A stretch of DNA of 64,000 bases from an uncultured SAR86 cluster bacterium (lineage in GTDB: Bacteria; Pseudomonadota; Gammaproteobacteria; Magnimaribacterales; D2472): assembly GCA_902541175.1 (NCBI GenBank), contig CACBPP010000001.1, forward strand, positions 260,923 to 324,922. The letters are read 5' to 3'. The notes beneath the pieces are model-generated. The model was not told the origin of the DNA and searched no databases. It saw only the letters and a program-made list of their open reading frames with translations. This document shows positions 22,294 through 63,761 of the stretch, piece by piece. The translations under genes were made by a program, and so were the position numbers. Each line of letters opens with the position of its first letter. Position 1 is the stretch's first letter.

Positions 22294-22362
22294 GATATTT
22301 CTCCAAAAATAGTTAAAAAAGCATTATACATAAAAAAAACATGATTTATTTTATAAATACTA

Positions 22363-22390
22363 TTGATAATTGATTATAAATACATATAAT
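22363..22390 (+). promoter_or_regulatory. Strong sigma70-like promoter
   Basis: TTGATA (22363-22368), 16-bp spacer, TATAAT (22385-22390); predicted TSS about 22397. Confidence 0.7.
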
Positions 22391-22396
22391 AATGTA

Positions 22397-22465
22397 TGTC
22401 AGCACTCCTCTCCCCTATTATATTTTGCTGACACTCTGGAATCATGGAGGGCTCAGTCCCTCCAT
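22397..22465 (+). ncRNA. Putative structured 5' leader or sRNA with two perfect hairpins
   Basis: TGTCAGCA(22397-22404)/TGCTGACA(22426-22433) with pyrimidine-rich loop CTCCTCTCCCC..., then ATGGAGGG(22444-22451)/CCCTCCAT(22458-22465). Confidence 0.55.
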
Positions 22466-22487
22466 CTCTTTAAAAGGTTGTAAATTT

Positions 22488-22574
22488 ATGAATAAAATTA
22501 GGGATAACATAGAAATTATTTTTTTAGTAACTATTTTCATTTCCTCTCTTTCTGCAATAACTCCTATTACTTAG
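22488..22574 (+). CDS. Putative 28-aa hydrophobic small protein or leader peptide
   Basis: MNKIRDNIEIIFLVTIFISSLSAITPIT*, downstream of the hairpins; weak AAGG upstream; same frame as track ORF 22392-22574. Confidence 0.3.
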   Translation: MNKIRDNIEIIFLVTIFISSLSAITPIT

Positions 22575-22588
22575 GTTAGAATACACAC

Positions 22589-23113
22589 ATGAAAAAGATC
22601 GCACCTCTTTTTATTTTATTATTTTCTTTCTATTCTGAAGCATGTTCAGATTTGCTTGATACCGAAATGAGAGTTTTGGATTCAAGTGAAAGTGTCAATT
22701 TATGTGAATATACAGATCAAGTTGTTTTAGTTGTAAATGTTGCGAGTAGATGCGGATACACCTATCAATATTCTTCTCTTCAAAAACTTTATGAAGATTA
22801 CAAAAACGAAGGATTTGTTGTTCTCGGAGTTCCATCGAGAGACTTCATGCAAGAGTATTCAGATGAAGCAGATGTTGCTGAGTTTTGCTCCACTGAATAT
22901 GGGGTAGATTTCCCAATGTTTGCAACTTCAAAAGTAAGAGGTAGCAAAGCTAATCCTTTATACAAAAAATTGATAGCCCAGAGTGGTGTCTCACCTTCAT
23001 GGAATTTCAATAAGTATTTAATTTCTAGAGACGGTAAAGTCGTATCCACATTTGGATCAAGGGTAAAACCTGATTCGCCAGAATTACTATCTCAAATAGA
23101 AAAACTTTTATAG
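22589..23113 (+). CDS. Exported glutathione peroxidase-like protein
   Basis: Signal peptide; VNVASRCGYTYQYSSLQKLYEDYK, WNFNKYLISRDG. Confidence 0.93.
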   Translation: MKKIAPLFILLFSFYSEACSDLLDTEMRVLDSSESVNLCEYTDQVVLVVNVASRCGYTYQYSSLQKLYEDYKNEGFVVLGVPSRDFMQEYSDEADVAEFCSTEYGVDFPMFATSKVRGSKANPLYKKLIAQSGVSPSWNFNKYLISRDGKVVSTFGSRVKPDSPELLSQIEKLL

Positions 23114-27652: not shown

Positions 27653-28243
27653 TCAGTCATATGAAAGTACACGCGATTCTGTAATAACTAGGTCATATTT
27701 AATATCATGACTCTCGCCAAAACGTTCTTCTAAGACTTGATAATCATATCCCAGTCCAACAAAAAGAGGTCTGCATTTTTGAGACTTTAATTTTTCAAGT
27801 GTTTTATCAAAAAAACCACCTCCATATCCTAGCCTATGTCCATTCTTATCTATTCCAACAAAAGGTATGAACATAGTGTTAAGAACTTTAGGATTAATAT
27901 AGTCTTCATTCATTAGTTCATCTATGCCATATTTATTTTTTTTTAAGGTCTCACCCTCTTTGAATAAATTGAACTTCAATTCATTTTCAGAAACTATTCG
28001 AGGCATGTATATATTATTGGAGTATTTTAATAACTCATCGATTATTAGATTTGTAGGTATTTCGTTTTTATATTGAAAATAGAGAAGGGTATTTTTAGAA
28101 GATTTGATATCTATTTCTTTTAATGCATTTTTTTGAATCTGAGAATTTAACTCTTCGATATCATCCTGACAAAAAAGTTGCCCCTGCTTAAGTAGTGATT
28201 TTCTAATTTTATTTTTCACCATAATAATTGCAGAGGCTAGCAA
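27653..28243 (-). CDS. fau: 5-formyltetrahydrofolate cyclo-ligase
   Basis: GYGGGFFDKTLEKLK, FVGLGYDYQ; downstream of 6S RNA as in E. coli ssrS-ygfA. Confidence 0.93.
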   Translation of the reverse strand: MLASAIIMVKNKIRKSLLKQGQLFCQDDIEELNSQIQKNALKEIDIKSSKNTLLYFQYKNEIPTNLIIDELLKYSNNIYMPRIVSENELKFNLFKEGETLKKNKYGIDELMNEDYINPKVLNTMFIPFVGIDKNGHRLGYGGGFFDKTLEKLKSQKCRPLFVGLGYDYQVLEERFGESHDIKYDLVITESRVLSYD

Positions 28244-28420
28244 ACCAGATCACCGCTATGTGCTATACCTGAACCGAAAGTTCAGGTGGTGAACATCTTG
28301 TCAAATCAGGCTTCCCTTAATGGTAATGCTCAACAATGACAGTGGAAAATCACCTATTTAATAGTATCGGTTCAAATTTATTAACACATTGGCTAATGAA
28401 CCAGAATGTTATAGAAGTAT
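28240..28420 (-). ncRNA. ssrS: 6S RNA (approximate ends)
   Basis: Minus strand contains GTTGAGCATTACC...GGGAAGCCTGATTTGACAAGATGTTCACCACCTGAACTTTCGGTTCAGGTATAGCAC, resembling the 3' half of E. coli 6S; zapA-ssrS-fau synteny. Confidence 0.9.
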
Positions 28421-58581: not shown

Positions 58582-58660
58582 TGGTGGGCCTGGGAAGACT
58601 CGAACTTCCGACCTCTCGATTATCAGTCGAACGCTCTAACCAAAACTGAGCTACAGGCCC
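58582..58660 (-). tRNA. tRNA-Ile (GAT anticodon), CCA encoded
   Basis: Minus strand GGGCCTGTAGCTCAGTTTTGGTTAGAGCGTTCGACTGATAATCGAGAGGTCGGAAGTTCGAGTCTTCCCAGGCCCACCA; cloverleaf and anticodon loop CTGATAA. Confidence 0.95.
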
Positions 58661-61572: not shown

Positions 61573-61579
61573 GTAATTA

Positions 61580-61662
61580 ATGCAAAGGGGTGGCAATTTT
61601 GCCTGAGATCTTTTGAAACTCTTTGAACCTGATCAACACAATAGTTGCGGAGGAATTGCATA
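61580..61662 (+). promoter_or_regulatory. TPP riboswitch (THI element)
   Basis: ATGCAA...GGGGTGGCAATTTTGCCTGAGATC...CTTTGAACCTGATCAACACAATAGTTGCGGAGGAATTGCAT; conserved CTGAGA and TTTGAACCTGATC, P3 GGCA/TGCC, P1 ATGCAA/TTGCAT. Confidence 0.95.
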
Positions 61663-63761
61663 TGTATATCAGAAAAAAAATTCTATTTATATTTATCTTG
61701 TTGTTATCATTTTCAGTCTTCACTCAAGATATCGAGGAAATAATTGTAAAAGGTGAATATCGAGAAAAATCTATTATTGAAGAGGATTCAAGTATCTTAA
61801 TTATTCAGTCAGAAAAAATTAAGTCACAAGCTATAAAACATTTTCAGCAACTTTCATATCTTGTACCAAATTTAAATTATGCAGCTTCAGACTCAAGAGC
61901 AAGATATTTTCAAATACGAGGTATAGGAGAAAGATCCGGTTATCAGGGAACACCAAATTCTTCTGTTGGTTTTCTTATCGATGACATCGACTATTCTGGT
62001 CAGGGAGGCATTGCAACTTTATTTGATGTTGATCAAGTTGAAGTATTTCGTGGACCTCAAGGATCCAGGACAGGTGCAAATGCTCTAGCAGGATTAATTT
62101 ATATAAAGACCAAAGATCCAACAGATAAATTTGAAGGGACTTCAGAGCTAACTTTTGGAGATTATGGAACTCAAAATATTGGTGTTGCGTTTGGAGGACC
62201 ATTAAAGAATGAAAAAATGAAATATCGTTTGGTAATGAGAACTGACTATGCTGACGGATTTAGAAAAAATACTTACTTAAATAAATCAGATACATCAAAA
62301 AAAGATGAGCTTACTTTGCGTTACAAACTGGATTGGGAAATTGATGAAACTACAAATATTAATTTTCTTGTTTCAAAAGTTGATATGGATGACCCAGCTG
62401 ATATTTGGACAATTGATGGAAGTTTAAATACTTTATCAGATCGTCCAGGAATGGATTCACAAATAACGGACTCAATTGGAATAAAAATAACAAAGAATTT
62501 TAATAATTTTGATCTTCAAAGTTTAACAAGCTCAACAAAAACCGACGTTGTTTTCAGTTATGATGCAGATTGGGGTAATTCTGACTCACATTTTCCATAT
62601 ACTTATGATTATTTTTCTGAAACATTAAGAAAGAGAGACACTTTTAGTCAAGAAATACGTTTTTTGTCAAAAAATAAGGATTTTTCTCAAAGTAATCCAT
62701 TTGAGTGGGTCTTTGGTTTTGACTTTAGTGAATTAGATGAATCAAATCTTACTAAAGATGATGGGGTTTATGAAGATCCGTCTGATCCATTTGGACCATA
62801 TGTTAGTGAATCTTCAATTTCAAGAAATTATAAATCTGAAAATTTATCATTGTTTGGAAATATTGATTATTTTTTAACGAATAAAACTAAACTTGCTTTT
62901 GGTTTGAGATTGGAAAATTGGGATTCAAAATACAAAGATTCTAATAATGAATCTTTTAGTCCTTCAGATAATATGAGTGGAGGAAAAATTTCACTAGTCA
63001 AAAAAACCAACAATGATTCAAATATTTACTTTTCAATAGCAAGAGGATATAAACAAGGTGGATTTAATCTTGGTCTTGATGCTACAGATAATTTAGTAAG
63101 ACAATCTCTTATTTATGATCCGGAATATCTAACTAATTATGAATTTGGCATAAGCTCAAACTTAAAGGATAGGGATTTAAATTATTCATTTGTAATTTTT
63201 TTCTCTGAAAGAAAAGATCAACAAGTTTTGATTTCGAGACAAGTTGACCCGACCGATCCTAATACTTTTTCATATTTAACTCAAAATGCTGCTGAGGGTG
63301 AGAATTACGGAATTGAAATCACTTCAAATTATTTATTAAGAGATGACTTATATTTATTTGCTAATTTAGGATTTCTTAAAACAAAAATTAAGAGTTGGGA
63401 ATCAAGATTTGATTTAGAAGGTAGGTCACAAGCTCATGCACCTGAGCACTCATATTCGATTGGAGGAAATCTAAATCTTAAAAATAATCTTTATTTAAAA
63501 TTAGACATTAACGGAAAAAGTAGTTTTTATTATTCAGATTCACATAACAATCAATCTAAAAGCTATCAATTGACTAACATAATATTTGGATACTCGAATT
63601 CTGATTTTTCTGCTGATCTCTGGATAAGAAATATATTTAATAAATATTACTCAACGAGAGGATTTTACTTTGGTAACGAAGCACCAAACTTTATTGATAC
63701 TTTATACAGAAGACAAGGAGACCCTAGAAATATTGGCATATCTCTGAGATATAATTTTTAG
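61662..63761 (+). CDS. TonB-dependent receptor, likely thiamin/precursor uptake
   Basis: Signal peptide; plug LVPNLNYAASDSRARYFQIRGIGER, VEVFRGPQGSRTGANALAG; terminal YNF. Start placed after the riboswitch rather than inside it (track start 61623). Confidence 0.93.
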   Translation: MYIRKKILFIFILLLSFSVFTQDIEEIIVKGEYREKSIIEEDSSILIIQSEKIKSQAIKHFQQLSYLVPNLNYAASDSRARYFQIRGIGERSGYQGTPNSSVGFLIDDIDYSGQGGIATLFDVDQVEVFRGPQGSRTGANALAGLIYIKTKDPTDKFEGTSELTFGDYGTQNIGVAFGGPLKNEKMKYRLVMRTDYADGFRKNTYLNKSDTSKKDELTLRYKLDWEIDETTNINFLVSKVDMDDPADIWTIDGSLNTLSDRPGMDSQITDSIGIKITKNFNNFDLQSLTSSTKTDVVFSYDADWGNSDSHFPYTYDYFSETLRKRDTFSQEIRFLSKNKDFSQSNPFEWVFGFDFSELDESNLTKDDGVYEDPSDPFGPYVSESSISRNYKSENLSLFGNIDYFLTNKTKLAFGLRLENWDSKYKDSNNESFSPSDNMSGGKISLVKKTNNDSNIYFSIARGYKQGGFNLGLDATDNLVRQSLIYDPEYLTNYEFGISSNLKDRDLNYSFVIFFSERKDQQVLISRQVDPTDPNTFSYLTQNAAEGENYGIEITSNYLLRDDLYLFANLGFLKTKIKSWESRFDLEGRSQAHAPEHSYSIGGNLNLKNNLYLKLDINGKSSFYYSDSHNNQSKSYQLTNIIFGYSNSDFSADLWIRNIFNKYYSTRGFYFGNEAPNFIDTLYRRQGDPRNIGISLRYNF

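Follow-up and report, generated by a model that had tools for sequence, protein, structure and literature searches.

A putative small RNA with a conserved C-rich loop precedes a microprotein gene and gpx in SAR86 bacteria

The genome of an uncultured SAR86 cluster bacterium carries, at positions 22363–22574 of the window analysed here (the whole 64-kb stretch of DNA), a promoter-like sequence followed by two hairpins, the first of which presents a C-rich, anti-Shine-Dalgarno-like loop. Is this arrangement an RNA in its own right and, if so, does it act on the glutathione peroxidase gene (gpx) behind it or on messages encoded elsewhere? On the sequence, the first stem, its 21-nt loop and the second stem lie exactly where the original prediction had put them (Table 1).

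Table 1. Features of the sRNA–microprotein–gpx locus (window coordinates)
Feature	Position	Strand	Basis or remark
Promoter block TATTGATAATTGATTATAAATACATATAATAAT	22361..22393	+	Conserved in aligned SAR86 loci and most stand-alone copies
−35 hexamer TTGATA	22363-22368	+	N16 spacer to the −10 hexamer
−10 hexamer TATAAT	22385-22390	+	Sequence check
Candidate sRNA/leader RNA, ~75 nt	22397..22471	+	101.1 bits (score of the window copy with covariance model R1); 96/108 genomes; covariation; 5' and 3' ends predicted
Hairpin 1, 8 bp, presents the C-rich loop	22397..22433	+	Fold; pair changes
Stem 1, TGTCAGCA / TGCTGACA	22397-22404 / 22426-22433	+	Sequence
C-rich loop CUCCUCUCCCCUAUUAUAUUU, 21 nt, starts CTCCTCTCCCC	22405..22425	+	Alignment and f2 loci; proposed pairing seed
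Linker CUCUGGAAUC	22434..22443	+	Kept in gpx-locus copies of the window's family, missing from stand-alone copies
Hairpin 2, 8 bp (GGAGGG/CCCUCC), with U-rich tail CUCUUU	22444..22471	+	Read as an intrinsic terminator
Stem 2, ATGGAGGG / CCCTCCAT	22444-22451 / 22458-22465	+	Sequence
Shine-Dalgarno AAAAGG of the small ORF	22472..22477	+	AAGG(TT) before ATG in many relatives
28-aa single-helix membrane microprotein MNKIRDNIEIIFLVTIFISSLSAITPIT, unannotated	22488..22574	+	Purifying selection; nearly all aligned loci
gpx, glutathione peroxidase family, signal-like N-terminus	22589..23113	+	PF00255, E 7.7e-28

The promoter block and the two-hairpin RNA

The promoter had been ranked among the best matches of the window, with a start near 22397 on the first base of stem 1. 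Its coordinates hold, and TTGATA/TATAAT, with 11 of 12 matching positions, ties for the top score of the region; promoter-like matches as a class occur there at background frequency (22 versus 23.8 in shuffled sequences). An AT-rich imperfect palindrome (22361–22382) spans the −35 region. A candidate promoter on the minus strand (CTGACA-N18-TATAAT, 22402–22373) is probably a coincidence, because its −35 hexamer falls within the stem, where covarying changes destroy it. The 33-bp block (22361–22393) also recurs outside the sRNA copies, before a pseudoazurin-like gene in two genomes (2 and 4 mismatches) and upstream of sdhA in the same two genomes (7 mismatches), all remaining sites having at least 7. 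Palindromic block sites of this kind (G000:C2:138123, G000:C3:126086) were noted in two distant SAR86 genomes at the pseudoazurin-like gene and, more weakly, at sdhA. This sharing of the block with electron-transport genes hints at a possible common regulon.

At the genus scale, the DNA of positions 22360–22600 matches 29 other genomes with 76–99% identity; in more distant SAR86 loci the stretch ~22344–22475 can still be aligned and the flanks no longer can. As counted with R1, the element (promoter, both hairpins and C-rich loop) is kept in 96 of the 108 genomes of the window's family (f1), one of them (G012) matching only at E = 0.09, and in 10 of 10 genera. Among good-quality genomes of the family it is present in 18 of 19. 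Clear homologues of the sRNA exist in a second family (f2) of the same order, and a class-wide sample of 274 genomes gave two weak matches beyond the window's own genome, one of which is a true homologue from this sister family. Weak model matches in families f3 and f173 were rejected: all inspected f173 matches and most f3 ones resemble ordinary terminators. Three f3 loci (L321, L322 and L328) match the model weakly and carry a conserved palindrome with a similar loop (TCTCTCCCC); they were left uncounted because they seem to overlap the start of a gene on the opposite strand. The sRNA is present in f1 and f2, and neither f3 nor f173 has a convincing copy; should f1 and f2 correspond, as we infer, to the Suzuki and CHAB-I-7 families, this distribution agrees with the published view of those two as sisters (PMC11582366).

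Searches of Rfam 15 at gathering and relaxed thresholds returned no meaningful match to the element, and none at the gathering threshold. The element was likewise not matched in phage records or, as an exact pattern, in viral contigs, and no publication on a SAR86 sRNA was found in the literature searched. Across the whole window, Rfam matches are limited to a 6S RNA (28238–28410, minus strand), a TPP riboswitch (61576–61672, plus strand) and a tRNA (58585–58660, minus strand).

As a single sequence, the element folds moderately better than chance (z = −2.39). Compensatory changes, which the original prediction proposed to seek in relatives, are present. Both sides have changed in 11 of 16 pairs among 54 gpx-locus sequences; with second copies and f2 loci included, the count is 13 of 16 with 95.6% of cells paired, a figure that leans in favour of the structure since the alignment was fitted to it. 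No shuffle out of 500 reached these values on any measure, and pairing in slid controls was 38–57%. In 40 diverse sequences all eight pairs of hairpin 1 have changed on both sides, and the raw sequences themselves show different stem types, for example GTCAGCA/TGCTGAC, ACCAACA/TGTTGGT and ATCGGC/GCCGAT. The stems vary; the loop core CUCUCCCC(C)UAU, by contrast, is near-invariant in the alignment and the f2 loci; a constant loop on a variable stem is the pattern expected of a loop that pairs or binds.

Conservation (76–99% identity within the genus, 96 of 108 genomes) and covariation thus mark the element as more than chance, and they support an anti-SD-like C-rich loop on a real structured RNA at the predicted start (~22397). 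The further proposal of two mutually exclusive folds, with the GGAG of stem 2 pairing alternatively with the CTCC of loop 1, was not borne out: the compensatory changes in stem 2 are independent of loop 1, and the stem would serve as a terminator. The GGAG hardly varies within the window's family, and it may pair transiently with loop 1.

Stand-alone copies, the terminator and the microprotein gene

In genera g2, g8 and g9 the element occurs a second time elsewhere in the genome, as a stand-alone copy. Every one of these copies retains the C-rich loop, and in each hairpin 2 runs into a U-rich tail (e.g. TGGAGGACTTAGTCCTCCATTTTTTT); most have nearly the same promoter block, and none has an ORF behind it. 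In those examined, what comes next is a convergent exonuclease I-like gene, reached at its 3' end. A tRNA gene near three stand-alone copies (L117, L122 and L124) is a hint at how the copy may have been placed. In genome G099 the RNA is found a third time (L115 1213–1287, minus strand), divergent from an alternative-oxidase-like gene. The gpx-locus copy of L058 has a decayed loop (UUCUUACCCCUAU), and what is apparently the same genome (G103, equal score) retains an intact second copy. In the f2 gpx locus, AGTCAGTCTCTCCTCTCCCCCATGACTGAC is followed by a terminator of a different stem (GGGGC-TTCG-GCCCC-T-rich) and then by the microprotein gene and gpx; the f2 loop (CTCCTCTCCCCC) is the same as that of the window's family.

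The terminator is of textbook form in several stand-alone copies and in f2, and has a weak tail in the window's genus. The ORF-less copies with a U tract, together with the different terminator stem in f2, argue that hairpin 2 is an intrinsic terminator and that the RNA is an sRNA. The element is therefore best read as an sRNA of ~60–75 nt, in keeping with the stand-alone sRNA of ~75 nt suggested at the outset. Since the CUCUUU tract is poor, the terminator is likely to be leaky in the window's genus and to allow some read-through.

A leader controlling gpx had been offered as the alternative to a stand-alone sRNA. The RNA does sit in the gpx leader; the gene that follows it, though, encodes a previously unseen 28-aa microprotein. 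The 295-bp region that had stood out as intergenic is in reality the sRNA plus a small gene, because it contains a conserved 28-codon ORF (22488–22574), which ends at the last base of the element range. In the window, gpx starts 14 nt past the ORF in the same direction. Nearly every locus examined has a homologous ORF of 24–33 aa in this position. Its dN/dS is ~0.07–0.24, an approximate range from three length classes, in two of which synonymous sites are near saturation. The ORF is thus conserved and under purifying selection directly 3' of the sRNA, and a read-through transcript past the terminator would include it.

The microprotein reads as a single hydrophobic membrane helix; neither Pfam nor NCBIfam gave a match to 22488–22574. 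Its f2 relatives are recognisable (e.g. MEKIADNIELIILFTIFAVLLLGISSV, translated by eye). In part of f2 (L319, L320) an extra short ORF, MKEYMNNLFSFCKEYPVWAAVFFSFGYLIGEIYVV, lies between the RNA and the usual microprotein. At loci L093, L095 and L097–L099, gpx directly follows an L,D-transpeptidase-like gene, with neither the RNA nor the small ORF.

Proposed mode of action and candidate targets

Searches for RNA chaperones detected no Hfq in the 108 family genomes and neither ProQ (0 of 41 genomes) nor CsrA (0 of 41), with E. coli controls positive in each case. The Hfq dependence implied by the original comparison with Hfq-type sRNAs is therefore unsupported, and membership in the Hfq-dependent enterobacterial class was rejected on the same ground; the predicted sRNA would function independently of Hfq. 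A CsrA-binding reading of the GGA motifs was also rejected, since the search gave no CsrA and the GGA of the linker is variable. By analogy, a C-rich loop held on a stable stem is a plausible device for pairing in a genome without these chaperones.

On the sequence evidence we consider it fairly probable that the element is a trans-acting, Hfq-independent sRNA with a one-hairpin pairing head and a terminator, which is also the 5' leader of a microprotein–gpx operon. A sigma-70-type promoter would start the RNA at ~22397, hairpin 1 would expose the single-stranded loop CUCCUCUCCCC(C)UAUU, and hairpin 2 would stop most transcripts, the remainder continuing through the gene of the 28-aa membrane protein and into gpx. 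The CCCC of the free RNA would pair with GGGG-type Shine-Dalgarno (SD) sites and block translation initiation. By analogy, the sRNA probably acts by masking ribosome-binding sites on other mRNAs, with those of TonB-dependent receptors, the outer-membrane nutrient receptors, as leading candidates.

This choice of targets comes from a scan for GGGG-N3-11-ATG in the near-complete sequence of the window's genome and in one distant genus, with receptors identified by phmmer. The motif precedes 6 of 12 TonB-dependent receptors versus 25 of 1117 other genes in the first genome (p = 2.1e-7) and 7 of 11 versus 28 of 1157 in the second (p = 3.5e-9), p-values that are optimistic because the class was picked after receptors had been noticed among the matches. 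In receptor SD regions GGGG is the top enriched 4-mer, and the top 5-mers, AGGGG and GGGGA, are the complements of CCCCU and UCCCC in the loop (UCCCCU). An independent receptor set from seven other family genomes has GGGG sites in 18 of 29 cases, compared with 13 of 29 for receptors of two SAR86 families without a convincing sRNA (p = 0.29), the start codon being chosen in both groups alike by a score that favours GGGG. The receptor signal is thus order-wide and may have another cause, and because GGGG also marks receptors in these families, the link is a lead and the target class suggestive. Shuffled C-rich loops distinguish receptors from the remaining genes equally well in 17–22% of cases, since any C-rich loop profits, and genome-wide duplex energies between loop and start regions were not clearly above coding-internal controls. 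TonB-dependent receptor mRNAs are accordingly suggestive, if leading, candidates.

Within the same trans-acting explanation, it is a tentative possibility that the sRNA acts on a few other mRNAs with GGGG or GGAG sites and not on TonB receptors as a class. Genes for a GcvT-like aminomethyltransferase, FtsZ, SspA, Skp and a symporter keep a G-rich SD in both genomes, and the receptors of families with no convincing sRNA have GGGG as well; against this, receptors, the one class tested, are strongly enriched, and the names of the other candidate genes were judged by eye. The SD site of the GcvT-like aminomethyltransferase-family gene (identity by eye; G000:C1:66462-67766 and G087:C1:1077968-1079272), conserved as CGGGGAGGG / AATAGGGGAGG, is among the best conserved loop-complementary ones.

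It is unlikely that the RNA is a cis-acting leader only, that is, a terminator-attenuator or a protein or ligand sensor for microprotein–gpx, with the C-rich loop as the sensor and the stand-alone copies as by-products. Such a leader would suit the order RNA–microprotein–gpx, which is kept in two families, the invariable leader position of the gpx-locus RNA, the weak U tract in the window's genus and the linker CUCUGGAAU, conserved solely in gpx-locus copies. The second copies, however, have the same loop and terminator with no gene behind them, the loop is constant there, and no riboswitch or leader in Rfam matches.

A protein-binding role, in which an RNA-binding protein (e.g. a ribosomal or cold-shock protein), and not an mRNA, would be the partner that the C-rich loop binds or titrates, is less probable still. 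A near-invariant loop on a covarying stem would be expected of a protein site no less than of a pairing seed, and binders other than the undetected Hfq, ProQ and CsrA are possible; yet there is no candidate protein, and it would have to be a coincidence that UCCCCU complements the leading SD motif of TonB receptors. Chance hairpins behind an ordinary promoter, as the single-sequence z-score and the background-level promoter scan might suggest, can be dismissed with near certainty, being refuted by covariation and by conservation in two families.

Known C-rich-loop RNAs and the meaning of the element

The trans-acting sRNA preferred here has described counterparts. The Xanthomonas RNA sX13 uses CCCC loops to repress mRNAs that bear GGGG close to the start codon, and it does so without Hfq (PMC3771888). 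Compared by description, it resembles the predicted SAR86 RNA in being gammaproteobacterial and having CCCC in a loop on a stable stem; the SAR86 RNA would share its independence of Hfq and its targets marked by GGGG. In SAR86 the CCCC lies in an apical loop, CUCUCCCC(C)UAU, on a covarying stem, and GGGG at translation starts is enriched at TonB receptors, also in families without a convincing sRNA. However, sX13 is 115 nt long, has three C-rich loops, lies downstream of polA and occurs in a genome with Hfq (PMC3771888), whereas the SAR86 RNA has one C-rich loop plus a terminator and stands before a microprotein gene. The sX13 family proper, which requires three C-rich stem-loops, was therefore rejected.

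The alphaproteobacterial CcsR/cuckoo RNAs, which with the DUF1127 protein CcaF1 form CIN1, share C-rich anti-SD loops on variable stems, and they come from one transcript with a small protein gene (PMC10253847; PMC3927594), as read-through would allow here. In SmelA075/SmelA099 the CCUCCUCCC motif occurs in three or four tandem hairpins (PMC3927594), and CcsR comprises four RNAs co-transcribed with the gene of a DUF1127 RNA-binding protein (PMC10253847). In SAR86, by contrast, a single C-rich hairpin precedes the gene of an unrelated hydrophobic protein of 28 aa. Membership in CIN1 was rejected: there is a single loop with CTCCTCTCCCC and no repeated CCUCCUCCC, and the adjacent downstream protein has no Pfam (DUF1127) match. 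The cuckoo/Hfq reading likewise falls, since Hfq was not found and motif and architecture differ.

Two Caulobacter RNAs are instructive in part. GsrN pairs through a 5' C-rich loop with G-rich mRNA sites, but it is alphaproteobacterial, is linked to the general stress sigma factor, activates katG and shares no common locus (PMC5869019). ChvR is Hfq-independent and represses a TonB-dependent receptor, one pairing site lying just upstream of the start codon; it differs in having a single dedicated target, two pairing sites and three stem-loops, and in its lineage (PMC6237742). The predicted SAR86 sRNA is a new RNA family, without an Rfam match, whose putative mechanism is of a known kind and whose setting is unusual: a microprotein–gpx leader, a single C-rich loop and a host without detectable sRNA chaperones.

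A bolder and rather doubtful extension is that, in an abundant and streamlined marine lineage where Hfq, ProQ and CsrA were not detected, one minimal sRNA family controls the whole TonB-receptor set by masking GGGG SD sites; a membrane microprotein would be co-produced with the sRNA, co-evolve with it and have a linked role in the envelope. TonB-dependent transporters dominate the transporter pool of SAR86, which is among the most abundant bacteria of the surface ocean (PMC11582366). A conserved sRNA in ~1.2 Mb genomes without known sRNA chaperones would demonstrate that riboregulation persists despite genome streamlining, and it would offer a compact natural model of chaperone-free pairing via C-rich loops. 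To this the locus adds a microprotein, unannotated so far and conserved across two families.
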